Origin: Treponema sp.
GTDB lineage: Bacteria; Spirochaetota; Spirochaetia; Treponematales; Treponemataceae
Length of the DNA: 64,000 bases
Reading direction: 5' to 3'
Assembly (NCBI GenBank): GCA_016288205.1
Contig: JAEEYO010000070.1
Location: forward strand, 62,001-126,000
A program made the position numbers and the translations under genes. The notes below the pieces were generated by a model. The model saw only the letters and a program-made list of their open reading frames with translations. It did not search any database and had not been told where the DNA came from. Of this stretch, positions 16-60,954 are shown in pieces. Positions within the stretch are counted from its first letter, which is position 1. Each line of letters begins with the position of its first letter.

Positions 16-678
16 TCAAGAAAATGACTGCCTGTGATTTTTGTAATTTTTCCTGAGCAGCTCCTCCATGCCGGAAAGCTTGACAAGCTCAGACATCTCA
101 ACTTTTTTCCCTGGCTGATATTCCACCACCGTCTCGCTTTCAGGAGGAATCTCAATGCGCCTTGTGTAGGCAAGAACCCTGGAATCCATTCCCTCTATGC
201 TGCATTTCAGGTTGATTATCACATACTTGCGCCCGGCAGGAATCAGCACATACTGCTCCCTGTCATCCGGCGAAATCTGTATGTCAAAGGAATCCGACGG
301 GGTCTCACCGCTCGCGGAATCAAAAAAGGCTATGTGAAGGAAAAATCCCTTGAAGTCGGGCCTTGAGGTAAGAGTCTCAAACTCCTGTATGCTGTAATCC
401 CAAAAAACAAAGGCCCATGCGGGATTTCTTAAAATGGCGTAAATCTGTGTCTCGTTATATGTCTTGGGCAGGAAATCGGGAACGTCTATCTCCGACTCCG
501 CCATCTGCTCTTCATCCGTCTCAGACTCAAGCTCTTGTGCCGCCTCAAGTAACTCCCCAATAACAAAGCGGCGGCTAAGGTTCTCGGGTATGTCAATGCC
601 ATAGTCAAAGGCAAGTGAAATCAAATCCGCCGTGGAAATAGATTCCAGATATTGCCGTGACAAAATTTTCTCTTCCAT
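16..678 (-). CDS. DUF4912 domain protein with N-terminal helical domain
   Basis: A 220-residue cytoplasmic protein with no signal peptide. Residues about 5-50 form a short helical segment (LESISTADLISLAFDYGI) that resembles a Rho-N or SAP-like nucleic-acid-binding fold. After an acidic linker, residues about 70-190 carry the DUF4912 core, recognised by YNETQIYAILRNP followed by WAFVFWDY. The family is common in spirochaetes and Firmicutes and its biochemical role is unknown. A nucleic-acid-binding role is only inferred from the N-terminal fold. No Shine-Dalgarno sequence precedes the ATG; a promoter with its -10 box 9 bases upstream suggests a very short or absent leader. It is separated from the next minus-strand gene by a heptamer repeat. 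Confidence 0.8.
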   Translation of the reverse strand: MEEKILSRQYLESISTADLISLAFDYGIDIPENLSRRFVIGELLEAAQELESETDEEQMAESEIDVPDFLPKTYNETQIYAILRNPAWAFVFWDYSIQEFETLTSRPDFKGFFLHIAFFDSASGETPSDSFDIQISPDDREQYVLIPAGRKYVIINLKCSIEGMDSRVLAYTRRIEIPPESETVVEYQPGKKVEMSELVKLSGMEELLRKNYKNHRQSFS

Positions 679-687
679 GATTCATCA

Positions 688-716
688 ATAATCGCTAAAA
701 TCGCCAATAATGTCAA
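688..716 (-). promoter_or_regulatory. Promoter of the DUF4912 gene, close to the ATG
   Basis: On the minus strand TTGACA (711-716) is followed by a 17-bp spacer and GATTAT (688-693), then 9 bases to the ATG at 678. The expected transcription start lies 2-3 bases before the ATG. The -35 box touches the C-rich end of the heptamer repeat. Confidence 0.55.
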
Positions 717-10354: not shown

Positions 10355-10428
10355 GGGGGCTTAGCGAAGCTGGTTATCGCGCTGGCCTGTCACGCCGGAG
10401 ATCACGGGTTCGAGCCCCGTAGCTCCCG
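10355..10428 (+). tRNA. tRNA-Asp (anticodon GTC)
   Basis: A 74-base cloverleaf. The acceptor stem GGGGGCT pairs with AGCTCCC (one G-U pair), discriminator base G. D arm GCGA/TCGC, anticodon stem CTGGC/GCCGG with loop CTGTCAC giving anticodon GTC, T arm ACGGG/CCCGT with loop TTCGAGC. The 3' CCA is not encoded. A hairpin terminator follows within ten bases. Confidence 0.96.
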
Positions 10429-10434
10429 TCCCTT

Positions 10435-10462
10435 AAAGCCATTCGCAAGAATGGCTTTTTTA
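10435..10462 (+). terminator. Intrinsic terminator after tRNA-Asp
   Basis: AAAGCCATTC, loop GCAA, GAATGGCTTT followed by a T run; a 10-bp stem. Confidence 0.85.
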
Positions 10463-10484
10463 TTAAAAGGTTCTTCGGAACCAC

Positions 10485-10557
10485 CGGGTAATAGCGCAGC
10501 TGGTAGCGCGCTACGTTCGGGACGTAGAGGTCCCCGGTTCGAATCCGGGTTACCCGA
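10485..10557 (+). tRNA. tRNA-Pro (anticodon CGG)
   Basis: A 73-base cloverleaf. The acceptor stem CGGGTAA pairs with TTACCCG (C1-G72 is the normal first pair of bacterial tRNA-Pro), discriminator A. Anticodon stem CTACG/CGTAG with loop TTCGGGA gives anticodon CGG, reading CCG. T arm CCCGG/CCGGG with loop TTCGAAT. The 3' CCA is not encoded. It may be transcribed by read-through from the tRNA-Asp promoter or have its own promoter; none is obvious between the two. Confidence 0.96.
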
Positions 10558-10563
10558 TAAACT

Positions 10564-10594
10564 AAAAGGCTTTCCAAACGGAAGGTCTTTTTTT
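10564..10594 (+). terminator. Intrinsic terminator after tRNA-Pro
   Basis: GGCTTTCC, loop AAAC, GGAAGGTC, extended by AAAA/TTTT, ending in a T run. Confidence 0.85.
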
Positions 10595-10630
10595 ATACCG
10601 GCTTTTTCTTAAAATATTTTAAGATTTTAC

Positions 10631-10658
10631 TTGTTTTTTATTAAATCAGGTTTATAAT
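10631..10658 (+). promoter_or_regulatory. Promoter predicting a leaderless mRNA for the next gene
   Basis: TTGTTT (10631-10636), 16-bp spacer, TATAAT (10653-10658), then only 7 bases (TGTATAC) to the ATG at 10666. There is no room for a Shine-Dalgarno sequence downstream of the expected start. Confidence 0.65.
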
Positions 10659-10665
10659 TGTATAC

Positions 10666-11355
10666 ATGAAGATTACTGAAACATGGCTTGATGAGCATAT
10701 TTTCTCCGATCCAGACTGTGGTGGCTACCAGCTTTCATGCAAGCAGCTTAAGTTGTTGTGCCAATGGTTTCCAGAACTTTTCAAAAATGAAAACGGAAAA
10801 TGTCCGAACATAATATCCGGGTGGAACAAAATCATCCTGGGAAAAGAGATTTCCGAGAGCAGGTCCGAAATCTTCAAGCGGGCAAACGCAAAAAAGGACG
10901 TGCTGAAAAAAAAGCGGTCCAAGGTAATCTCAGAATTCATAAACGAAGGACTCACAATCTGTCAGAACATACATGGAAAGAAACCGGAGCACCCGCATAC
11001 AAATTTCGTGCGAAAAATCGGCATGATAAACGGTGTGTGCATACAGGCGGTTCTCTTTTTGCCGACGGACGACACTGCGGTGGAATTCACATTTGCGGAT
11101 GACGAATCAAACAAGAGGTACAGGGCCGAGTGCACGGGAATATACAAACCGCATGAGCCTATGTACGGATTGGATTCGGTAATCTACGAGGTGATTGGAG
11201 ACAACCCGCTGGACAAAGACCGTCAGAAAATCACTGTCAGTGACTGCACCGGGCTGGACATTACAAAAAGCATAAAAAAAATTAAGCCGGAGCCCTCAAG
11301 AGCCAAAAAAAGGTTCCTGAAAAAGCCCCGGCACCCGAACACGAGGGGTTTCTAA
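10666..11355 (+). CDS. Hypothetical basic protein beside tRNA-Pro
   Basis: A 229-residue protein I do not recognise. There is no signal peptide or transmembrane helix. Residues 1-60 contain several aromatic residues and a CGGYQLSCKQLKLLCQWFPELF stretch region (residues 18-40); residues about 75-95 are strongly basic and helical; residues about 115-190 look beta-rich; the last 30 residues are basic and proline-containing. The promoter spacing predicts a leaderless message. It lies immediately after two tRNA genes, a common site for acquired DNA, and its stop codon directly abuts the stop of the convergent gene at 11356. Nucleic-acid binding is possible from charge alone, and that is only a guess. 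Confidence 0.7.
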   Translation: MKITETWLDEHIFSDPDCGGYQLSCKQLKLLCQWFPELFKNENGKCPNIISGWNKIILGKEISESRSEIFKRANAKKDVLKKKRSKVISEFINEGLTICQNIHGKKPEHPHTNFVRKIGMINGVCIQAVLFLPTDDTAVEFTFADDESNKRYRAECTGIYKPHEPMYGLDSVIYEVIGDNPLDKDRQKITVSDCTGLDITKSIKKIKPEPSRAKKRFLKKPRHPNTRGF

Positions 11356-19746: not shown

Positions 19747-20817
19747 CTATTTTCTTTCTATTGTCATGCGGGAGATTGTCGTGTTTCTTCCAACATAAAG
19801 AGCGTCTCCCCTGACCTGAATGAACGCGCAATCTGCCTCGAATGAAAACTGTGCGGCAGGATGATCGGAAGGCTCTACAATGGTCACTGTATATGTGCCG
19901 TTCTTCTTGCTGAGGATACAGAGCATACCGTCGCTTTCCGATTCCTCAATCTGAATGATTTTGCCGTCCAATTCCACATGAGAACTCTTGAGCTTTTTCA
20001 AATCCACAATTCCGAGGCCGCCATTGTAATTGTAATAAACAGAATTTCCGGTCTTGTTGAATTTCACAAGCACCTGATTGTTTGTGTCCTCGGGAAGATA
20101 TTCATGGAAAATGATTTTACTGTGGATGCTGTCCGTCTTCTGCGCAATTACGAAACGCTGCTTGTTCTGTCCTGAAATACATGCCACGGTCTCGCCGTCC
20201 TCAGAAATTCCCACGCCAAGGACTACAGGAAAATCACTTCCACCCGGCGCAAATTTCTGATCCAGCTTTCCCTCCTTATTGAAAGAAACAACGTTTCCGT
20301 CAGCAAATCCGACCACGGTTCCACCCTCGCTTGAGTCAAACGCAATTATGGGTGCATAAGATTCATAGCTCCAAACCACGCTTCCGTCCCCAGCACATGA
20401 GGCAAAAGACGCTCCACCGGGAAGGAATGTGTAGATTCTGTCCTCATCAAAAAACGGAAATCCTGCCACCCTGATTGTACCGGCTTTTGATCCGTCAGAC
20501 GTGAAAAAATCAGCCTCCTCGCAGTCCGCACCGAAAGTCGCATAATACTTGTTTGAAATGGCGGCTTTGAACGCATAGGGAATGTGTGAGGCAATCTTTC
20601 CGTCCTCGGTAAAATAACCGATGCTCTGTCCGAGACGGAATGGAATCAGCTTTGAAACATCGCTTGAATCGGAACGCTGCAAATCATTTATGTTCACAGT
20701 CCAGTCGGGAACAAGATGCAGCTCCGTGCTCAAGGGTCTGAAAGCAAGCAGTATGTAAAGCAGGCAAAAAATCACCATGCCGATTATGACTCTATTTCTC
20801 TTTGTGTTTTTTTCCAT
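19747..20817 (-). CDS. Membrane-anchored beta-propeller-like protein
   Basis: A 356-residue protein with an N-terminal membrane anchor (residues about 9-27, VIIGMVIFCLLYILLAF) and a long periplasmic part with repeated strand pairs of PQQ/WD-like character (DGSVVWSYESYAPIIAFDS, EGGTVVGFADGNVVSFNKEGK, DGETVACISG). A six- or seven-blade propeller is likely. No enzymatic motif is seen; a scaffolding role at the envelope with the downstream LytM-like protein is inference. The only promoter found places its -10 box nine bases before the ATG, so the message may be nearly leaderless. Confidence 0.7.
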   Translation of the reverse strand: MEKNTKRNRVIIGMVIFCLLYILLAFRPLSTELHLVPDWTVNINDLQRSDSSDVSKLIPFRLGQSIGYFTEDGKIASHIPYAFKAAISNKYYATFGADCEEADFFTSDGSKAGTIRVAGFPFFDEDRIYTFLPGGASFASCAGDGSVVWSYESYAPIIAFDSSEGGTVVGFADGNVVSFNKEGKLDQKFAPGGSDFPVVLGVGISEDGETVACISGQNKQRFVIAQKTDSIHSKIIFHEYLPEDTNNQVLVKFNKTGNSVYYNYNGGLGIVDLKKLKSSHVELDGKIIQIEESESDGMLCILSKKNGTYTVTIVEPSDHPAAQFSFEADCAFIQVRGDALYVGRNTTISRMTIERK

Positions 20818-20826
20818 AATATATCT

Positions 20827-20855
20827 ATTTTAATGAAACGTTTGATTTTTGACAA
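20827..20855 (-). promoter_or_regulatory. Promoter of the beta-propeller gene, close to the ATG
   Basis: Minus strand TTGTCA (20850-20855), 17-bp spacer, TAAAAT (20827-20832), then nine bases to the ATG. The -35 box touches the C-rich end of the heptamer array. Confidence 0.6.
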
Positions 20856-22124: not shown

Positions 22125-23729
22125 TTAGTAAACGCCGAGAATCTGCTCAAGCTGCTCGCGACCGATAATCTTGAAGAAACTTCCGATTCTTGGTCCCTGC
22201 TCCTTTCCAATCAGCGCGCGGTAGACTGCCTTGAAGAGAGCCTTGCTTTCCTGTCCGGCCTTAGTCGCCACGTCGTAGATTGCCTGCTGCACACCCTTCT
22301 CGTCCAAATCATCAATGTGGGGAAGAACGTCGCTGTAGATTGCCTTGAGCATGGAAACCTCAACGTCGGAAAGTCCCTCTTCCTTGGAACCGTCGGTGCG
22401 GAGGGCAAATTTGAAATCATCGGGAGCGCACTCATTTACCCAGTACCACGCGCACTCACATCTGCGGCGGAGGCACTCAATCTGGGAGGGCTTAATGTCC
22501 TTGAATGTCGCAATCACTTTGTCAATGTTTCCCGAATATGTCTGGAGCAATGTCGTGAGCTGTCTGAACGGAACCTGATACGGCATCTCGCTCGGCATGT
22601 CACCAATCTGGCTCAGCTCATACACACGTTTTTCCATGCGCTCAAGATTTTCGTTCTTTGCCTTGTCCACTCCCCACGCGATTCTTTCGGTGCGGTCATA
22701 AGCCTCGTACATTGTGATTACGTCAAGGTCGAAGCTGATTGAGAACTCATGGTCAACTTTGTTCACCGCGAAAATGTAACGGAGGACCTCAGGCTGATAG
22801 ACGGTAAGAGCGTCAATCAAGGAAATTACCTTTCCCTTTGATGAGGACATCTTTCCGGGGATTCCCTTGAGGCTCACGAAATCATATTTCATTGTGACGG
22901 GAGCATCCCATCCGTAGATTTTTTTGCTGATGAGCTTTGCGGTGTCGTAGCTTCCACCAGGACTGATGTGATCCTTTCCGCCCGGCTCAAAGACAACCTT
23001 TTCCTCGTTCCATCTCATGGGCCAGTCAACACGCCAACCGAGCTTGAATTCGCTGCTGGTGCGGAGGTCTCCCTTTTCCTCGTGGCCACATTCGGTACAG
23101 CGGTAAGTCACGCCGTACTCTCCGTCGTAATCTATGATTTCGGTTGTGTCCTTGTTGCACTTGCAGCAGAAAGCAGAGATGGGCCAGTAAACGTCGCTGT
23201 CCTTCATCTTGTGAGCGTCGTCACGGAAATTGTTCAGGCACCACTTTATGAGGTCGCGGTTCTGCAATGCCTTTTTCATTCCCTCGGCATATCTGTGGGC
23301 GCGGTATCTGCTCGCCTGATAAAGGAACTCCGGATGGATTCCAACGCGGGGAAGCTCCTTTTCAATGTCAACCTCATGGTGGCGGGCATAGTTCTCGTCG
23401 CGTCCGAATGTGTCGGGAACCATCGTGATGGGATAGCGCAGGTATTTTTCCAGTGTCTCTGGCTCGGGCATATTTCCGGGCACCTTTCTGAAAACGTCGT
23501 AGTCGTCCCATGAATAGATGAAGCGGACGTTCTTTCCTCTTGCTTTCAAAGCACGGACAATCAGATCCACGGTGATTATCTCGCGGAAGTTACCGATGTG
23601 CACGGTTCCTGATGGTGTGATTCCCGAAGCGCATGTGTAAAGGGGCAAGTCTCCCCTCTGCTCTATGATTCTCTTCGCCTGCTGGTCTGCCCAGTGGCAC
23701 AATTCCTTTTCGTCTCTTTGTGTACTCAT
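22125..23729 (-). CDS. lysK: Lysyl-tRNA synthetase, class I
   Basis: A 534-residue class I LysRS, the form found in archaea, spirochaetes and alphaproteobacteria. Class I signatures are plain: [10 protein letters not shown] (HIGH motif) near residue 45 and [11 protein letters not shown] near 295. A zinc ribbon is visible (CCKCN...CTECGHE, about 185-220), and the alpha-helical anticodon-binding domain fills the C-terminus. It charges tRNA-Lys in the cytoplasm. ATG 23729 is chosen: the frame stays open to a TTG at 23750, but the promoter -10 box lies in that extension. With only nine bases between -10 and ATG and no ribosome-binding site, a leaderless message is likely. Confidence 0.95.
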
Positions 23730-23738
23730 AATGGCGAT

Positions 23739-23767
23739 ATTATAGAACAAAATGATTTTTTAGGCAA
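23739..23767 (-). promoter_or_regulatory. Promoter of lysK predicting a leaderless mRNA
   Basis: Minus strand TTGCCT (23762-23767), 17-bp spacer, TATAAT (23739-23744). The expected start of transcription is 2-3 bases before the ATG at 23729. Confidence 0.7.
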
Positions 23768-28996: not shown

Positions 28997-30268
28997 TTAT
29001 GTGCGGTAGTCTCCGTTGATTTTCACATAATCGTAAGTCAGGTCGCAGCCCCATGCGGTTCCAGATGCGTTGCCGTCTCCGCAAACAACATCCACAATCA
29101 CCTCGTCCTCGCTCAGAACCTCAAGCGCCTTTTCCTCGTCGAAGTTCAGCGGAACACCCTTCTCATAAACCATGACGCTCTTTTCCTCGCCGTCGTTTCG
29201 TCCAAGGAAATCCGTGGCTCCATGACGCATGGCTCCCTTGTGGCTCTTGTAGGATATGGTCACTTTGTCGGGATCAAAATCCGCGCCCGAATATCCCATG
29301 GCACAGAGGAAACGTCCGAAGTTCGCGTCCTTTCCAAAAATTGCGGCCTTCACGAGACTTGAAGAAATAAGGCTCTTCGCAAGAGTACGCGCGGTCTCAA
29401 CATCCTTCGCACCGGTAACGTTGCACTCAATCAATCTTGTGGCTCCCTCACCGTCTCCGGCAATCTTCATGGCCATCTGCGTGTTGATTTCATTCAATGC
29501 GGCAAGGAAATCCTCATAGTCCTTTCCCTCGCTTTCAATCTTCGCGTTTCCAGCCATTCCGTTCGCGAGTATGGTAAGAGTGTCGTTGGTGGAAGTGTCT
29601 CCGTCAATTGACACACAGTTATATGTTCCCGCGATTGATGAGCGCAGGGCTTTTTCCAACATAGCGGGGCTGATTGAGCAGTCGGTCGTCATAAAGGCGA
29701 GCATGGTTCCAAGGTTGATGTGAATCATTCCGCTTCCCTTGCACATGGCACCGATGCGCACAGTCTTTCCGCCGATTGTCGTCTCAACCGCACACTCCTT
29801 ATAATGTGTGTCCGTCGTCATGATTGCGACTCTCGCTTCCTTGTGTCCTTCCTTGCTCAGGGAGTCCTTGAGCTCTTGTATGTGAGACTCAATCACCTCG
29901 ACCGGGAGCTGCTGTCCGATTACGCCTGTTGAGCAGACCACGACATCCTCCGCCTTGATTCCGAGGACTCCTGCAGCCGCCTTTGCCATACGGAGTGCAT
30001 TTTGACGGCCCTGTTCCCCGGTACATGCGTTGGCATTTCCGCTGTTCGCAATCACAGCCTGCATCACGCCGTTAGAGATGTTCTGCTTGGTGAGTTTGAC
30101 GCTTTCCGCTTTTACACGGTTCTGGGTGAAAACCCCGGCAGCATCGCAGGGTTTCTCGCTGAAAATAAGTGCCGTATCATTTTTTGTCCGGCCTTTTTTG
30201 ATTCCGCACAACATTCCGCTTGCGGTAAATCCCTGAGGAGCCGTAACTCCGCCATCAATAAACTGCAT
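28997..30268 (-). CDS. argJ: Ornithine acetyltransferase (bifunctional ArgJ)
   Basis: A 423-residue ArgJ. It is made as one chain that cleaves itself; the cleavage site is visible as the Thr in LGTMLAFMTTDCSIS near residue 190, with KGSGMIHIN just before it. SIDGDTSTNDTLTI and GKDANFGRFLCAMGYSG are also family blocks. It transfers acetyl from N-acetylornithine to glutamate, recycling the acetyl group; bifunctional forms can also use acetyl-CoA. AAGGAG precedes the ATG. First gene of the arg run; with argB and argD it covers the acetylated branch except argC. Confidence 0.95.
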   Translation of the reverse strand: MQFIDGGVTAPQGFTASGMLCGIKKGRTKNDTALIFSEKPCDAAGVFTQNRVKAESVKLTKQNISNGVMQAVIANSGNANACTGEQGRQNALRMAKAAAGVLGIKAEDVVVCSTGVIGQQLPVEVIESHIQELKDSLSKEGHKEARVAIMTTDTHYKECAVETTIGGKTVRIGAMCKGSGMIHINLGTMLAFMTTDCSISPAMLEKALRSSIAGTYNCVSIDGDTSTNDTLTILANGMAGNAKIESEGKDYEDFLAALNEINTQMAMKIAGDGEGATRLIECNVTGAKDVETARTLAKSLISSSLVKAAIFGKDANFGRFLCAMGYSGADFDPDKVTISYKSHKGAMRHGATDFLGRNDGEEKSVMVYEKGVPLNFDEEKALEVLSEDEVIVDVVCGDGNASGTAWGCDLTYDYVKINGDYRT

Positions 30269-30626: not shown

Positions 30627-31448
30627 TCACGGCCACCAGATGCCCTTGTCCTTGGATTTGTGCAGGGGGCTCTTTTGGAATCCGTAGGGATGATTTTTCC
30701 GCCGCACCTTTTTCGGTTTCGTCTCGGGAATGCTGGCAGCTACATCCGGCTCAGGAGCTGACTCGACAATCTGGGGCTCAGATTCGGGAACTTGTTTCTC
30801 AACAAGAGGTTCCTCAATCTCTTCGCTAGGGACGGGAGCCTGTGCTTGGGCTTGAGCCTTAATCTCTTTTGTGAAATTGAACTCTGTTTCGGCGGAAGTC
30901 AGGGTCAGTGATTCGTCTCCGGATGCAAGATTCAAGCGGAAAAACTGAGGCGTGACGGGGCCGTATTTCTCATCTACGAACTCAAAGGAGCAAGTGAGGG
31001 CAAAACTTCCGTCATCAGCGGCAATGGTTCCGTCAGAATCAACTATGGAAAAAAGATTGCCCTCCCTGTAAAAATACAGCACAACGCTTCCCATCACGCC
31101 GTCGGAAGTACCCACTCCTACCCTTACGTTCGCGGTTTCAGTCCATTTTAAGTCACTTCCCACGCTTGCAATAAGGAGCCAGGAATTCTCGCTTCCCGGC
31201 ACCCTCATAAAGCTCAGGTTCAGGGGATATTCGGCACCGTAGAAATCATGCACCGAAGTCACCGCATTGAGGGTTGAGTCCTTCATTTCCTCCACCGTCG
31301 AAGAGTCAAAGAGCATGGGGGTTGAGGAATCCAGGTTGCCCAGGCATGTAATTTCTTCTATAATAACGACTTCGTCCTCCGCAAAAAGGGAAGCCGCCAT
31401 GAGAACCGAGAATAAAATCAATACGAATGTCTTTCTGAATCTTTCCAT
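30627..31448 (-). CDS. Exported hypothetical protein with Pro/Glu tail
   Basis: A 273-residue protein with a signal peptide (MERFRKTFVLILFSVLMAAS, cleaved after SLFA). Residues 24-185 form a beta-rich domain of unknown family; residues about 195-245 are a low-complexity Ala/Gln/Pro/Glu/Val linker (KAQAQAQAPVPSEEIEE); the last 30 residues are strongly basic and end KGIWWP. The tail could contact nucleic acid, peptidoglycan or an acidic envelope polymer. A 23-bp tandem repeat begins 63 bases upstream of the start, in the position of the promoter, so expression may vary with copy number. Confidence 0.7.
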   Translation of the reverse strand: MERFRKTFVLILFSVLMAASLFAEDEVVIIEEITCLGNLDSSTPMLFDSSTVEEMKDSTLNAVTSVHDFYGAEYPLNLSFMRVPGSENSWLLIASVGSDLKWTETANVRVGVGTSDGVMGSVVLYFYREGNLFSIVDSDGTIAADDGSFALTCSFEFVDEKYGPVTPQFFRLNLASGDESLTLTSAETEFNFTKEIKAQAQAQAPVPSEEIEEPLVEKQVPESEPQIVESAPEPDVAASIPETKPKKVRRKNHPYGFQKSPLHKSKDKGIWWP

Positions 31449-31511
31449 ATTTCAATTATACACCACGAAGCCCAGTTTAGCAAGAAAAGATTTTTCCTTC
31501 ACCGCAAGGTC

Positions 31512-34866: not shown

Positions 34867-34895
34867 TTGATTTTCAATCAATACAGTTATATAAT
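34867..34895 (+). promoter_or_regulatory. Promoter of the AAA_14 ATPase predicting a leaderless mRNA
   Basis: TTGATT (34867-34872), 17-bp spacer, TATAAT (34890-34895), then seven bases to ATG 34903. Confidence 0.7.
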
Positions 34896-34902
34896 CAAGT
34901 AT

Positions 34903-36264
34903 ATGGAACTGAAACGAAAGATATACAACAAACTTCTTAAATGGAAAAATGAAGTTCACGGACAAAAATCACTCCTTATAGAGGGTGCGCGACGAATAGG
35001 AAAATCAACCATCGCAGAAACATTTGCCCGGAATGAATACAAATCTTATATTCTCATTGACTTTAACAAAACGTCAAAAAAGATAAGGGACAATTTTGAC
35101 AATATAAACAAGCTTGATCTTTTTTTTCAGACCCTCTCTCTTGAATACAATACAAAATTATTCACACGCGAATCTATTATTATTTTTGATGAAATACAGA
35201 AATTTCCCCGGGCAAGGGAAGCAATAAAATATCTTGTACAAGATGGACGCTATGATTTTATAGAAACCGGCTCACTCATTTCCATAAAAGAAAATGTCGA
35301 AGAAATAACGATTCCATCAGAAGAGCGAAAAATTAAAATGTATCCTCTTGATTTTGAAGAATTTGCAACTGCATTAGGAAAAGAAATTCTGCTTGAGTAT
35401 ATAAAGGATTGTTTTTCAAAAAAACAGCCTCTGGAACAGAAATATCATGCAGAAGCCATGCATTTATTCAGGGAGTATATGCTTGTTGGTGGTATGCCGC
35501 AAAGTGTTGTTGCCTATATTGAATCTCATGGTGATTTTGAAAAAAGTGACATAGAAAAGAGAGACATTTTGGAGCTTTATCGTGATGACATAAAAAAAGC
35601 CGCCAAAAGATACAATTCAAAAGTTTCTGCAATTTTTGAAAATATACCTGCATTCCTTTCGACTCACGAGAAAAAAATCGTGTTAAGCGAGATAGACCGC
35701 AATGGTGTTTTTAGCCGCTATGATGAACCTCTTTTTTGGCTTGATGATTCCATGATTTGTAATTTATGTTATCGATGCAATGACCCATGTGTAGGTTTTG
35801 CACTTAATAAAAATGAATCCGCCGTAAAATGCTATTTGGGGGACACAGGACTTTTAATAAGCCTGGCTTTTGGTGAAAACGAAATTGCCAACCAACAGCT
35901 TTACCGCTCAATTATGAATGGCAAGCTTTCTTTAAACGAAGGTATGCTGTACGAAAATATAATTGCACAGATGCTTACCTCTCTTGGACGAAAATTATAT
36001 TTTTACACACAATACAATACTACAAAACATCGCAATGATATTGAAATTGATTTTCTACTGTCAAATGAAAGTAAAACAAATTTTAAAATTCATCCCATGG
36101 AAGTAAAATCCTCTAAGAATTATACAACAGTATCGCTTACGGCATTTAGGACAAAGTTCAGTAGCAAAATTGAAAAGTCATACATAATTCATCCAAAAGC
36201 CTTTTCAGTAGATGGAGAAATAATAAAACTTCCCCCCTACATGATTTTTTGTCTAGCAGGATAA
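34903..36264 (+). CDS. AAA_14 / DUF4143 family ATPase
   Basis: A 453-residue ATPase of the group with an N-terminal AAA_14 domain and C-terminal DUF4143. Walker A is GARRIGKSTIA near residue 30, Walker B is SIIIFDEIQKFP near 90, sensor-like ETGSLISI follows near 127, and the C-terminal restriction-endonuclease-like segment shows EIDFLLSN and MEVKSSKNYT, the family's D-ExK pattern near residues 385-405. These proteins are abundant in anaerobes and archaea and their function is unproven; links to mobile DNA have been suggested. The gene is visibly AT-richer than its neighbours, which fits transfer. A decayed relative is at 55381-56207. Confidence 0.88.
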   Translation: MELKRKIYNKLLKWKNEVHGQKSLLIEGARRIGKSTIAETFARNEYKSYILIDFNKTSKKIRDNFDNINKLDLFFQTLSLEYNTKLFTRESIIIFDEIQKFPRAREAIKYLVQDGRYDFIETGSLISIKENVEEITIPSEERKIKMYPLDFEEFATALGKEILLEYIKDCFSKKQPLEQKYHAEAMHLFREYMLVGGMPQSVVAYIESHGDFEKSDIEKRDILELYRDDIKKAAKRYNSKVSAIFENIPAFLSTHEKKIVLSEIDRNGVFSRYDEPLFWLDDSMICNLCYRCNDPCVGFALNKNESAVKCYLGDTGLLISLAFGENEIANQQLYRSIMNGKLSLNEGMLYENIIAQMLTSLGRKLYFYTQYNTTKHRNDIEIDFLLSNESKTNFKIHPMEVKSSKNYTTVSLTAFRTKFSSKIEKSYIIHPKAFSVDGEIIKLPPYMIFCLAG

Positions 36265-52346: not shown

Positions 52347-52817
52347 CTACCTGACCTGAGAAAAAAGCTCGGACATCTCGTCTCTCCAAGGGGCCCTTCC
52401 CTCGCGGCTTTCCCACTCGATGATTTTCCTGATGGTAAAGTGCCTTACGTCGCGGATGTTCGGATAGTTCAGCACACCGAAGCGTCCCTGCCCGATGTAG
52501 GCAATCTTGTCGCCCTCACCCAGAGTCTCGTTGTCCGAAACGATGTCCATGGCGCACTCAAAATGAATGGGCACACCGTCCCCGTGATCGGGAAGAGCCG
52601 TCGCCAAATCCATGATGACCTTGCCGCACCTTGGGCATACGGGCTGATTCTGTGACTTGAACGCACGGATTGCCTCATCCTCAGCGGCCATCTGCTCCAC
52701 CGAAACCGACGAGCGACCCCTGAACTGACCCTTTTTTGACCTGCCGCCGTTGTTATCCTCACGACGCCTGTTATTTCCACCGGCATTACGCCGCTTTGAA
52801 TTTCTGTCTCTTTTCAT
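52347..52817 (-). CDS. Zinc-finger hypothetical protein with basic N-terminus
   Basis: A 156-residue protein. Residues 1-35 are almost all Arg, Lys, Asn and Gly (RRNAGGNNRRREDNNGGR), as in RNA-binding tails; CPRCGKVI near residue 62 with HFECAMD near 85 forms a probable zinc finger; the C-terminus (GVLNYPNIRDVRHFTIRKII) is a conserved-looking beta-alpha segment. I do not recognise a named family. A nucleic-acid-binding role is inferred from the basic tail and finger. There is no Shine-Dalgarno sequence; a TATTAT box six bases before the ATG hints at a leaderless message, with a weak -35 (TAGATT) next to a heptamer array. Confidence 0.65.
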   Translation of the reverse strand: MKRDRNSKRRNAGGNNRRREDNNGGRSKKGQFRGRSSVSVEQMAAEDEAIRAFKSQNQPVCPRCGKVIMDLATALPDHGDGVPIHFECAMDIVSDNETLGEGDKIAYIGQGRFGVLNYPNIRDVRHFTIRKIIEWESREGRAPWRDEMSELFSQVR

Positions 52818-52851
52818 ACTAAAATAATACTACAATTGAATATAAAAATCT

Positions 52852-52912
52852 AGTGGAAAGCGGAAAACAGAAAGTTTTAGTTTTCATCTCTCCACTTTCA
52901 ACTTTCATCTTC
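52852..52912. repeat. Pair of inverted heptamer arrays overlapping a gene end
   Basis: AGTGGAAAGCGGAAAACAGAAAG (52852-52874) and CATCTCTCCACTTTCAACTTTC (52885-52906) are heptamer-family arrays in opposite orientation, with TTTTAGTTTT between. The second runs into the coding end of the HD gene, whose stop codon (52898-52900) lies within it. The pair can fold as a hairpin. Confidence 0.65.
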
Positions 52913-53542
52913 CTTGAGCCATCCCATCTCAATTCCGCGACGGATGTTCGCCTCGACCCACGGCCAGATTGCGGGCATCCACTTTTTGATGATGTCCATC
53001 CTCCGAAGCACCGAGGATTTTTTCACCGAATGTTCAACCCATGTGTGCCCCTGAGTCAGCGTGTTGTGGAAAAAAGGCTGGAGCACGTCCATGCAGGCTG
53101 CGAAACGGCTGTCGGGGGTGGAGCGGGAGTCAAATTCTTCCCACAGACCGCGGATTTCGTTTCCCTGGTCGGAAGGAAGCATGGCAAAAAGCTTGTCGGC
53201 GGATTTCCGTTCCCTCTCCTCCTTCGAGAGATTTCCCACGCTGTCGTAGGCGAAAGTGTCACCCGCGTAGATTTCAATCAAATCATGCACGGTCAGCATA
53301 CGGACGGCACGCCCCAAATCAGCGTTCTCCACGAAATGCTCCTGCAGGACCTGAGCCATAACGGCGATGTGCCAGGAATGTTCCGCGTCATTTTCACGCC
53401 GGGATTGGTCCAAGAGGACTGTCTGCCGCAAAATGTGAGTCATTTTGTCAATCTCCGCGACAAAGCGCATCTGTGAGTCAAAACGCTCTATGCCGCTCGG
53501 AAGATACGACCCGAAGGGATTTTCATTGATTTTGATTTCCAT
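52898..53542 (-). CDS. HD-domain hydrolase, YfbR-like
   Basis: A 214-residue HD phosphohydrolase resembling YfbR/YGK1 5'-deoxynucleotidases. Metal ligands are visible as RRENDAEHSWHIAV (His, near residue 50), MLTVHDLIEIYAGDT (HD, near 85) and the Asp in FAACMDVLQPFF. The usual substrate is dNMP. The C-terminal codons and stop lie inside a heptamer array. ATG 53542 is preferred over an in-frame codon at 53584 because a full promoter lies in between, with its -10 box six bases before this ATG; the mRNA is predicted to be leaderless. Confidence 0.85.
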   Translation of the reverse strand: MEIKINENPFGSYLPSGIERFDSQMRFVAEIDKMTHILRQTVLLDQSRRENDAEHSWHIAVMAQVLQEHFVENADLGRAVRMLTVHDLIEIYAGDTFAYDSVGNLSKEERERKSADKLFAMLPSDQGNEIRGLWEEFDSRSTPDSRFAACMDVLQPFFHNTLTQGHTWVEHSVKKSSVLRRMDIIKKWMPAIWPWVEANIRRGIEMGWLKEDES

Positions 53543-53548
53543 GATTAT

Positions 53549-53577
53549 ATTATAGAAGATTTTTGCTTGGTTGGCAA
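53549..53577 (-). promoter_or_regulatory. Promoter of the HD gene predicting a leaderless mRNA
   Basis: Minus strand TTGCCA (53572-53577), 17-bp spacer, TATAAT (53549-53554), then six bases to the ATG at 53542, which falls where transcription should begin. Confidence 0.7.
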
Positions 53578-53646: not shown

Positions 53647-53988
53647 CTAGAGTGATTTTCTATGATTCTCGTTCAGGGACTCATAGAAACATTCTGAAAA
53701 ATACTTTGAGAAATCAAGGAATGCCCTTGTACCGGGATTTTTCCTCAGAAACACACGGTCCTCATCAGAAAGCCCAGTATAATAGAAGTAATTCGTCGTC
53801 AGATCCTTGGTCATCTGGAACGCCGGCGGATTCACTCCCTTGATTTTAAGCATGAAATAGAATTCCATGCAGTTCAGCACAGCCTCGCGATAGGGGCGGT
53901 ACTCCTCTCTCATAATCGATAACTTTTTTTTCATAAACTTTCCTTTATGACGCGAACATTTTAGGCAATCGGTTGCCTTGATGTCCAT
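53647..53988 (-). CDS. Small hypothetical protein with Cys pair
   Basis: A 113-residue soluble protein of no recognised family. It begins MDIKATDCLKCSRHKGKF, where CxxC plus His could hold a metal, followed by helical segments rich in aromatic residues (YRPYREAVLNCMEFYFMLKI, FLDFSKYFSECFYESLN). ATG 53988 is chosen because a promoter ends six bases before it; an internal ATG at 53934 has a good ribosome-binding site (AAAGGAAAG) and could give a 95-residue form without the Cys pair, so two products are possible. Confidence 0.6.
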   Translation of the reverse strand: MDIKATDCLKCSRHKGKFMKKKLSIMREEYRPYREAVLNCMEFYFMLKIKGVNPPAFQMTKDLTTNYFYYTGLSDEDRVFLRKNPGTRAFLDFSKYFSECFYESLNENHRKSL

Positions 53989-53994
53989 ACTTTT

Positions 53995-54023
53995 TTTATA
54001 CCACACGATTTAAAAAAAAGCAA
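53995..54023 (-). promoter_or_regulatory. Promoter predicting a leaderless mRNA for the Cys-pair gene
   Basis: Minus strand TTGCTT (54018-54023), 17-bp spacer, TATAAA (53995-54000), six bases to ATG 53988. Confidence 0.6.
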
Positions 54024-54109: not shown

Positions 54110-55255
54110 TTACTCCTCCGAAGTATCCTCTCCGTTGCTGATTTTCATCGCGTCCAAAAAGCCCAGTTTGTAGATTGTGGTCCTGTTGCGTCCGTGCTGC
54201 TTGGAATAATAAAGGGCCTTGTCCGCCTTCTTGAAAATGTAGCTCGGGGTAACGCCGCGGATGTCATGGATAAGGCAGCCTCCCACGCTTATGGTGATGC
54301 TCAGCTTCTGGTCCTTTTCGTAAAGAACAATCTCGCTCACTGCAAGACGGATGCGCTCCGCTATGGTCCAAAGGCTGTCCTCGTCACATTCGGTAAGCAG
54401 GATGGAAAATTCCTCGCCGCCGAACCTTGCCACACAGTCATTTTCCCGCACGATGTTTTTCAGGGTATCCGCAAGAGCCAGAAGCACCTTGTCCCCGCAC
54501 AAATGTCCGTAAGTGTCGTTGAAATGCTTGAAAAAATCTATGTCGATTATGAGCATCCCGGAAAGACGGTTGTAACGCCGCAGGTTGCTGATTGCCTCCT
54601 CCATCCTCGTGATGAAAAAATCGTAGGTAAAAAGCCCGGTCTTTGGCTCGGTAATGCTGATTTCGTAATGCAGGCCGTTTTGCATAGTGACCGCGAGCAC
54701 GGAAAACATCCTGTGTATATAGAACATTTCATTCGCAGAAAAGGAGCCGCCTCCGTTTTTCTCGCTTATGTAGATGATTGCATAGACACCGCCGATTCCA
54801 AGAAGAGGAATCACAAGCTTGGGCTTCAGCTTTAAAAAATCATCCGAAAAAGTGTTCTCGGGCAGCGCATGAACCAGATTGTCGAAGGGAACCGCATATC
54901 CGTTCACCGTCGTGTTCGCGAGATTGTCAAAATATTCTTCCAGGACATAGAAATACTTGGGATCCAGCGTTTTGTTCACTTTCTGCAGGTTTGAATAGTA
55001 AAACTGACGCAGACCGTTTTTGCGCGGTGGTTTTACCATAAAAACAAGGGTCTCCGGGATAAAATAGTCATTCAGCTTGCTGATTAAAAAATCAACCATT
55101 GAATCGACCCGCGTATAAGAGACCAGCTGGGAAATGTCCGCTATGGCACGGTTCAGTTCCCTGGACTCGTTCTTCAGATCCTCAATCCTAAACCAAAGGG
55201 CTGCCTCACTGAGGGTAACTTTCTTGTCATCATCATTCCGTTCTTTTTCATTCAC
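54110..55255 (-). CDS. GAF-like sensor diguanylate cyclase (GGEEF)
   Basis: A 381-residue cytoplasmic protein. After a short coiled coil, residues about 40-195 form a GAF-like domain (VDSMVDFLISKLNDYFIPETL, LVIPLLGIGGVYAIIYISE), and residues about 205-370 a GGDEF domain with MLIIDIDFFKHFNDTYGH and VARFGGEEFSILL. The inhibitory site RxxD is present as REND five residues before GGEEF, so product inhibition by c-di-GMP is likely. It makes c-di-GMP, the second such enzyme in the window. The -10 box TATAAT lies ten bases before the ATG, with GGAG between them, so the leader is very short. Confidence 0.92.
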   Translation of the reverse strand: MNEKERNDDDKKVTLSEAALWFRIEDLKNESRELNRAIADISQLVSYTRVDSMVDFLISKLNDYFIPETLVFMVKPPRKNGLRQFYYSNLQKVNKTLDPKYFYVLEEYFDNLANTTVNGYAVPFDNLVHALPENTFSDDFLKLKPKLVIPLLGIGGVYAIIYISEKNGGGSFSANEMFYIHRMFSVLAVTMQNGLHYEISITEPKTGLFTYDFFITRMEEAISNLRRYNRLSGMLIIDIDFFKHFNDTYGHLCGDKVLLALADTLKNIVRENDCVARFGGEEFSILLTECDEDSLWTIAERIRLAVSEIVLYEKDQKLSITISVGGCLIHDIRGVTPSYIFKKADKALYYSKQHGRNRTTIYKLGFLDAMKISNGEDTSEE

Positions 55256-55352
55256 GGCTCCATTATATCACACTTTTTCCAATTTTTAAAGGGGGGAATC
55301 CGCATTTTCCACCTTGTTACTGTGGATTTAGCTAAGTGCCCCACGCACCGGC

Positions 55353-59683: not shown

Positions 59684-60919
59684 TTAGTTGTTTGTGATTG
59701 ACTGAATCAGGCTGTCGGTTCGCCACCAGTTCACGTAGGCCTTGTCCGAGCGGATTGAAAGAACCGAGAGTATGCCCGAATTGCTCAGGTTGAACGTGTA
59801 GAAAAGGGTCTTCTGCCTGTCCATCTCAAGCTGGCGGTTCAAAATCCTCTGTCCGTTGGCCTGAATAATCTGCAGACCGAATCCAGCGTCATTGCTGATG
59901 ATGAAAAAGAACCATCCGTTCTCGCTCACGCCCAAAAAATCATAAGGAATCTTGTACTCCAGATTGGAAAAATCATCCACGGAGACCTCGGTATACGGAA
60001 TGATGTTCATCGGCGCGCCATAAGTTCCGGTCTCCACGTTGAGTCCGTAAAGCGTGGTGCGGTCATAATCCACCCCGGACTGCATCCTGCTCGCCTCATC
60101 CACATAAGGAATTGAGTAATCAAGCTTCACGTAAAGAATCCTGTCGTTGTAATCCGGCACGACGTTCTCAATCTCCACGTAGAACTCCTGATCCTCCTCA
60201 TAGGGCGACGGCACGTTCTTCTTTTCTATGGGGATTGTGAAAAGCATGTGTCCGGCCTCCGAGAACCAGTAAACTATGGGTCCCTCCGAGCTTACGCACA
60301 CCACCACAAGCTCGTTGTTGTTCGTGACATAAATATTCTTTACGAAGGGAAATGGTGTTCCGCCCGGCCCCTGCTGACCAAGATAGTCAACGAATTTTCC
60401 CTCGCCGTCAAAGCGCACGACAATATGCTCAAGATGCTCCTGCAGCTCGTCGTCGTATTCCTGCCGCTCAAGTGGAAGCTGGTCCACCGCATAGATGTAT
60501 TTCCGTCCGTCCACGGTAAGCTCCGTCACGCGGTTGAAGGGATATGACACTGCCTTTCTCGTCGCATTCATCGTCTCCCCCTCCTCGGTCGCAAAAGATG
60601 GCCGGGGATTCGTGTCCTCGTTGTAAAAGAGCGTCAGAAGGTCGCCGTAGGAGTTCATCTCCATGATTTTCTGGGACTCACCGTTGGATATATAAAAGAA
60701 TCCGTTGCGCATGGCAATCCTTGTGTCTATGTTGCCAATCTGATTGTAGTCGAAGATGTTCAGCTCATCCTCGAAATTTCCATACTCAAGGGAAAAGACC
60801 TCAACTTCCTCAAGGGACAGATTGTTTCTCTGCCTGCCGCAGGATGAAAAAAGCATGGCACATAAGGCCAGGGGCACAAAAGCCACGAATTCACCGATTT
60901 TTTTCATAATATTGACCAT
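59684..60919 (-). CDS. Lipoprotein with beta-propeller-like repeats
   Basis: A 411-residue lipoprotein: a hydrophobic signal peptide with lipobox AMLFSSC (Cys at 27), then a beta-rich body with repeated Asp/Gly turns (DGRKYIYAVDQLPLER, GEGKFVDYLGQQGPGG, NNELVVVCVSSEGPIVYWFSE) that suggests a six-bladed NHL-like or similar propeller. No enzymatic motif is seen. Start choice: ATG 60919 lies six bases after the -10 box, and ATG 60907 lies 18 bases after it; neither has a Shine-Dalgarno sequence, so a leaderless message starting at 60919 is favoured. It is divergent from secA. Confidence 0.75.
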   Translation of the reverse strand: MVNIMKKIGEFVAFVPLALCAMLFSSCGRQRNNLSLEEVEVFSLEYGNFEDELNIFDYNQIGNIDTRIAMRNGFFYISNGESQKIMEMNSYGDLLTLFYNEDTNPRPSFATEEGETMNATRKAVSYPFNRVTELTVDGRKYIYAVDQLPLERQEYDDELQEHLEHIVVRFDGEGKFVDYLGQQGPGGTPFPFVKNIYVTNNNELVVVCVSSEGPIVYWFSEAGHMLFTIPIEKKNVPSPYEEDQEFYVEIENVVPDYNDRILYVKLDYSIPYVDEASRMQSGVDYDRTTLYGLNVETGTYGAPMNIIPYTEVSVDDFSNLEYKIPYDFLGVSENGWFFFIISNDAGFGLQIIQANGQRILNRQLEMDRQKTLFYTFNLSNSGILSVLSIRSDKAYVNWWRTDSLIQSITNN

Positions 60920-60925
60920 ATTAAT

Positions 60926-60954
60926 AGAATAAAGAATAAAGATTATATTGTCAA
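60926..60954 (-). promoter_or_regulatory. Promoter of the 60919 lipoprotein gene
   Basis: Minus strand TTGACA (60949-60954), 17-bp spacer, TATTCT (60926-60931), six bases to ATG 60919. The -35 box overlaps that of the secA promoter. Confidence 0.65.

Follow-up and report, generated by a model that had tools for sequence, protein, structure and literature searches.

Promoters placed 6–9 nt before the start codon suggest leaderless expression of about one in twelve genes in a Treponema lineage

The gene that starts at position 10666 of this stretch of Treponema DNA carries a TATAAT box seven nucleotides before its ATG. Does such a placement mark a gene whose mRNA begins at its own start codon, and is the arrangement in regular use in this lineage? 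Both questions were addressed in the window (the whole stretch of 64 kb; G000:C5:62001-126000), in further DNA of the same genome and in related genomes. For one of the encoded proteins, the nearest named relatives were from Treponema MAGs and Treponema ruminis, which places the genome in Treponema or close by.

Promoters adjoining start codons in the window

The original prediction named eight genes with a −10 box 6–9 nt ahead of the start codon, and direct reading confirmed the box and its spacing in 8/8 cases. What it called the pair at 53.5–54 kb most likely corresponds to the minus-strand sites 53542 and 53988. At most of the named sites, a −35 box lies exactly 17 bp from the −10 box, a feature absent from the prediction, and three additional sites were found at 31448, 52817 and 55255. 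The promoters are listed below as −35 box, spacer, −10 box, gap and start codon.

678..716, minus strand: promoter of the DUF4912 protein gene (16-678), TTGACA-17-GATTAT-9-ATG
10631..10668, plus strand: promoter of the 10666 gene, TTGTTT-16-TATAAT-7-ATG, with TATAAT at 10653-10658
20817..20855, minus strand: promoter of the gene for a 356-aa protein (19747-20817), TTGTCA-17-TAAAAT-9-ATG
23729..23767, minus strand: promoter of lysK (22125-23729), TTGCCT-17-TATAAT-9-ATG
31448..31483, minus strand: promoter of the gene 30627-31448, TTGCTA-17-TATAAT-6-ATG
34867..34905, plus strand: promoter of the AAA_14/DUF4143 ATPase gene (34903-36264), TTGATT-17-TATAAT-7-ATG
52817..52852, minus strand: promoter of the gene 52347-52817, TAGATT-17-TATTAT-6-ATG, with a weak −35 box
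53542..53577, minus strand: promoter of the HD-domain protein gene (52898-53542), TTGCCA-17-TATAAT-6-ATG
53988..54023, minus strand: promoter of a 113-aa ORF (53647-53988), TTGCTT-17-TATAAA-6-ATG
55255..55290, minus strand: promoter of the gene 54110-55255, TTTAAA-17-TATAAT-6-GTG, with GGAG inside the gap
60919..60954, minus strand: promoter of the LIC_12708-family gene (59684-60919), TTGACA-17-TATTCT-6-ATG

The leaderless reading of 55255 is uncertain, and this gene may instead be led by a Shine-Dalgarno (SD) sequence, because GGAG falls within the gap and the start codon is GTG; taken singly, 52817 and 55255 may both be chance matches. The product of lysK is a class I lysyl-tRNA synthetase. 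The 10666 ORF (10666-11355) encodes 229 aa and has no match in NCBIfam or Pfam. Genes for tRNA-Asp and tRNA-Pro (window 10355-10620) lie directly upstream of it, each followed by what appears by eye to be a hairpin and a T run.

As a separate observation, a palindrome-like element, TGCATAAATATGCA / TGTATAAATATACA, or part of it, precedes the SD-led gene 28997-30268 on the minus strand of the window. It recurs upstream of the orthologs (L199-L228) in many members of the genus, and is possibly an operator.

Distances between promoters and start codons across the genome

The survey covered 0.77 Mb, or 22% of the 3.53-Mb genome (77 contigs), and comprised the window together with 40 other stretches (0.71 Mb). 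Start codons of 569 genes were taken from a home-made gene finder that relies on a hexamer coding score and is blind to the sequence upstream of the start, and matches to the −10 and −35 boxes were scored (out of 12) at every distance from the predicted starts. Outside the window, promoters scoring at least 9 numbered 22 at a gap of 6 nt, 13 at 7 nt, one at 8 nt and three at 9 nt, with 0–3 at each gap of 0–5 and 10–18 nt. The 35 promoters at gaps 6–7 compare with 2.53 expected from neighbouring positions (Poisson p ~1e-27). With the peak present in DNA outside the window, bias on the part of whoever first picked the sites was rejected as its source. The predicted over-representation of short spacings was likewise borne out there by a box matching TAnnnT at 5/6 or better: 40/517 genes carried one at a gap of 5–9 nt, its first T about 12–13 nt upstream of the start codon, against a mean of 10.8 and a maximum of 18 in 100 dinucleotide shuffles.

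We regard as highly improbable the view that AT-rich upstream DNA yields such boxes by chance and that they came to notice through being sought. The loose motif does leave some room for that account, since bare TAnnnT at gaps of 5–9 nt outside the window was weakly and not clearly enriched (60 versus a shuffle mean of 45.7 and maximum of 62). What speaks against it is the sharpness of the two-position peak outside the window and the flat profile of out-of-frame ATGs near the same starts (two at gap 6 and two at gap 7, n=352), together with the spacer preference, the pyrimidine before the ATG, the SD deficit and the conservation in orthologs described below. On the shuffles, the neighbouring gaps and the out-of-frame ATGs, chance was rejected as a general account. 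Genes at most 30 nt behind a same-strand gene showed no enrichment (1/167; shuffle mean 1.6), which is how promoters should behave.

Across the whole sample, promoters scoring at least 9 lay at gaps of 6–9 nt in 48/568 genes (8.5%), with five at gaps 10–13 and three at gaps 2–5; among genes with at least 50 nt upstream, the corresponding count was 40/317, with four and one at the control gaps. The window is richer in such promoters than the remainder (9/52 genes called versus 39/516; Fisher p = 0.03), its count of nine omitting 52817, which scores 8, and 53988, whose start was misplaced by the gene finder and which the promoter score leaves uncounted because the final base of its −10 box is not T. 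Our best reading of these counts is that leaderless transcription, with a leader of 0–3 nt, probably serves about 8% of genes, or about one in twelve; household genes would be among them, for instance lysK and a lepA-type gene.

Raising the threshold to a score of at least 10 in the same 317 genes left 27 promoters at gaps 6–9 (0.4 in block-shuffled sequence), one at gaps 10–16, and 41, 20 and 20 at gaps 17–44, 45–79 and 80–149, respectively (sum 81). Once block-shuffle means are subtracted, the leaderless-type share amounts to ~28% of the detectable strong promoters of transcript-leading genes, and in most other genes whose own promoter can be detected, it stands at least 17 nt from the start. 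Because gaps of 10–16 nt are nearly empty, leaders of about 4–10 nt appear to be avoided, almost to the point of absence.

Promoter architecture, initiating base and Shine-Dalgarno sequences

When 34 sites were picked by their −10 box only, the best match to TTGACA fell at a 17-bp spacer (mean 3.71/6, with at least 4 matches in 21/34), as against means of 0.62–1.88 for every other spacer length between 10 and 25 bp. The sites thus show the sigma70-type layout, a TTGACA-like −35 box followed after 17 bp by the −10 box. The base directly before the start codon was C or T in 36/41 candidates versus 246/505 other genes (p = 8e-7), and an SD sequence of at least 5 nt was found in none of the 41 candidates versus 253/505 other genes (p = 2e-12), 22 genes with intermediate scores being excluded from both groups. 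Eight of the 41 had a 4-nt SD-like match, possibly through chance overlap with the promoter. ATG is the typical start codon of leaderless bacterial genes, and it starts 40 of the 41 candidates (the remaining one has GTG); as 459/505 other genes also begin with ATG, this is weak evidence for the class.

The three bases preceding the −35 box appear C-rich in the 41 candidates (C at 0.54, 0.34 and 0.49), as in CCCCCCTC-TTGTCA. Pfam, applied to 20 of the 35 gap-6/7 candidates outside the window, pointed to no shared function; the domains were a mixture of LepA, gyrase B type, penicillin-binding protein, CheR, GGDEF, PurL type and GalT type.

With a −10 box 6–7 nt ahead of the ATG, transcription would ordinarily start on the A of that codon. 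With high confidence, albeit from DNA data, we propose that these sigma70-type promoters lie so near the gene that the RNA would start on the ATG, or no more than about 3 nt away from it, and form a leaderless mRNA. An ordinary promoter adjoining the gene would direct RNA polymerase to the A of the ATG or to a position within ~3 nt of it; the message would carry neither leader nor SD sequence, and initiation would presumably take place on the 5′-terminal AUG itself. In other bacteria, leaderless initiation proceeds through 70S ribosomes or through 30S-IF2-fMet-tRNA. From this arrangement we infer both where exactly the RNA starts and that its translation is leaderless. Loss of bS21 was considered as a simple cause and rejected, the genome having a PF01165 match above cut-off.

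A different possibility is that the promoters are real and the true start codons lie further downstream, giving leaders of ~10–40 nt, some of them without an SD sequence. The 60919 gene lends itself to this interpretation: it has an alternative in-frame ATG (MKK...) 12 nt, or four codons, downstream, and since many orthologs' starts match that ATG, it may be the true start. As a general explanation, we judge a downstream start to be unlikely, given that the peak stands at an ATG picked by coding score alone, that the candidates have no SD sequence of at least 5 nt, that out-of-frame ATGs show no peak, and that the ATG of the orthologs nearest the query start is mostly 5–10 nt from the promoter.

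A stronger competitor, still clearly the less probable one, holds that the leaders are ultrashort, 1–5 nt rather than zero, and that ribosomes start by a short-leader route. Gaps of 9 nt at 678, 20817 and lysK, and of 8–10 nt in many orthologs, fit this idea, as gaps of 8–10 nt would give leaders of 1–4 nt if the RNA starts 7–8 nt past the −10 box; if the usual transcription start applies, gap-9 sites would have a leader of 2–3 nt instead of none. The main peak at gaps 6–7 and the pyrimidine at −1 argue the other way, both being expected if the first transcribed base is the A of the ATG, as in the leaderless reading that we prefer.

Conservation in the genus and among other spirochaetes

Orthologous loci, the window's own included, were inspected for a promoter scoring at least 8 at 5–10 nt from the ATG. 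Among the best 30 of 39 lysK loci, 23/30 had such a short-gap promoter, with an SD sequence in 0/23 of those; 7/30 were not scored as short-gap, and 5/30 had an SD sequence instead (the SD-like match being in L116, L118, L121, L123 and L134). In two of these orthologs (L116 and L118), the SD sequence is accompanied by a promoter 31 nt from the ATG. With some orthologs SD-led and two of them having a distant promoter, lysK seems to have switched state within the genus. The 20817 gene had a short-gap promoter in 26/30 loci (best 30 of 39) and an SD sequence at the examined ATG in 0/30, and LIC_12708, for which all 23 places in the genus were used, had one in 16/23 loci, 15 of them without an SD sequence. 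An SD-led control gene gave the opposite picture (short-gap promoter 0/30, SD 29/30; best 30 of 40 loci). At gaps of 11–16 nt, a score of at least 8 was reached in 0 loci for lysK, 6 for the 20817 gene, 5 for LIC_12708 and 2 for the control. Apart from their orthologous lysK, two genomes have a second, distant class I LysRS-like match (27–30% identity; G012:C105:19550-21106 and G017:C50:27110-28657).

The 10666 gene has relatives in 3/117 other genus genomes. Its closest ortholog (G005, 65% identity) retains TATAAT-7-ATG, an arrangement that was not found in the two distant ones (L271 and L272). The 31448 gene is of no use for this comparison, because its homologs in the genus are all distant and longer.

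For a broader view, whole-genome counts of TTGACA-17-TATAAT-6-ATG were set against the same pattern with an 11-nt gap, with at most two mismatches, in 149 genomes; because the mismatches may fall anywhere, the ATG included, the resulting ratios are diluted. The window's own genome gave 142:58 and eight other genus members together 482:207. Elsewhere, single genomes of other families reached up to 54:13, group f25 had 118:48 (9 genomes), group f18 had 2831:2615 (25 genomes; ratio 1.08), and many groups were at or below 1. One genome of the same order and another family (G027) had 241 at gap 6 versus 123 at gap 11, exceeding the window's own genome. Other members of the genus share the short-gap enrichment, as do some of the remaining spirochaete families but not all; uniformity across the phylum was rejected, the group ratios spanning 0.67 to 4.15. 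Gene-based counts at gaps 6–9 were 18/284 in a Treponema ruminis sample (control gaps 4 and 2), 8/144 in G001 (3 and 1), 9/147 in G033 (1 and 1) and 11/321 in G071 of f18 (4 and 9).

According to Zheng et al. (2011, BMC Genomics 12:361; PMC3160421), who counted TAnnnT-marked leaderless genes in 953 bacterial genomes, such genes occur in 6/18 genomes of Spirochaetes, at a mean of 3.9% of genes (range 1.8–6.9), and make up roughly 20–40% in actinobacteria and deinococci. The candidates resemble the TA-led genes of that work in having TAnnnT ~12 nt before the start codon and no SD sequence; what is added here is the ~8% in one Treponema, the −35 box, the 17-bp spacer, the −1 pyrimidine and the conservation in orthologs. 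The dRNA-seq data for Leptospira interrogans (2017; PMC5243855), a member of the same phylum in a wide sense, report ~440 mRNAs with a leader of <10 nt, and in half of these it is <2 nt; RNA ends were measured there, whereas the present evidence for Treponema comes from DNA. In Deinococcus-Thermus (PMC12340547), a −10 box likewise stands directly before the ORF of leaderless mRNAs; the pattern is common there, whereas this Treponema has it in the smaller part of its genes and usually together with a −35 box. In the open-access literature, we found no RNA-based survey of leaderless genes in Treponema, and the word 'leaderless' is absent from the main text of a 2025 T. pallidum transcriptome paper (PMC12223175).

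Against this background, the claim that leaderless translation is common in the lineage is supported at the DNA level, for about 8% of genes, by the gap-6/7 peak, the 17-bp spacer, the −1 pyrimidine, the lack of SD sequences, ortholog conservation and the genus-wide excess; 'common' holds for the 48/568 genes counted, but falls short of the share in actinobacteria and deinococci (PMC3160421). The original prediction had also called the number of sites high for a bacterium outside those two groups; given the figures for Spirochaetes and for L. interrogans, a leaderless class is not unexpected there. As leaderless genes had already been reported for that phylum, the Treponema lineage would add a new case.

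Leaderless expression, known in other bacteria and little shown in this genus, is extended to a Treponema lineage with comparative evidence. The annotation of start sites is affected in practice, as gene finders favouring an SD sequence may misplace leaderless-type starts. We are evenly divided over a further view, in which leader length in Treponema would have two states—a promoter 6–9 nt from the ATG, leaderless and without SD, or one at least 17 nt away, leaders of ~4–10 nt being nearly forbidden—and genes like lysK would switch between them, so that the genus would record the passage between leaderless and SD-led expression. Where a gene appears leaderless in one species and SD-led in another, its orthologs offer natural pairs for studying a change in the mode of initiation.
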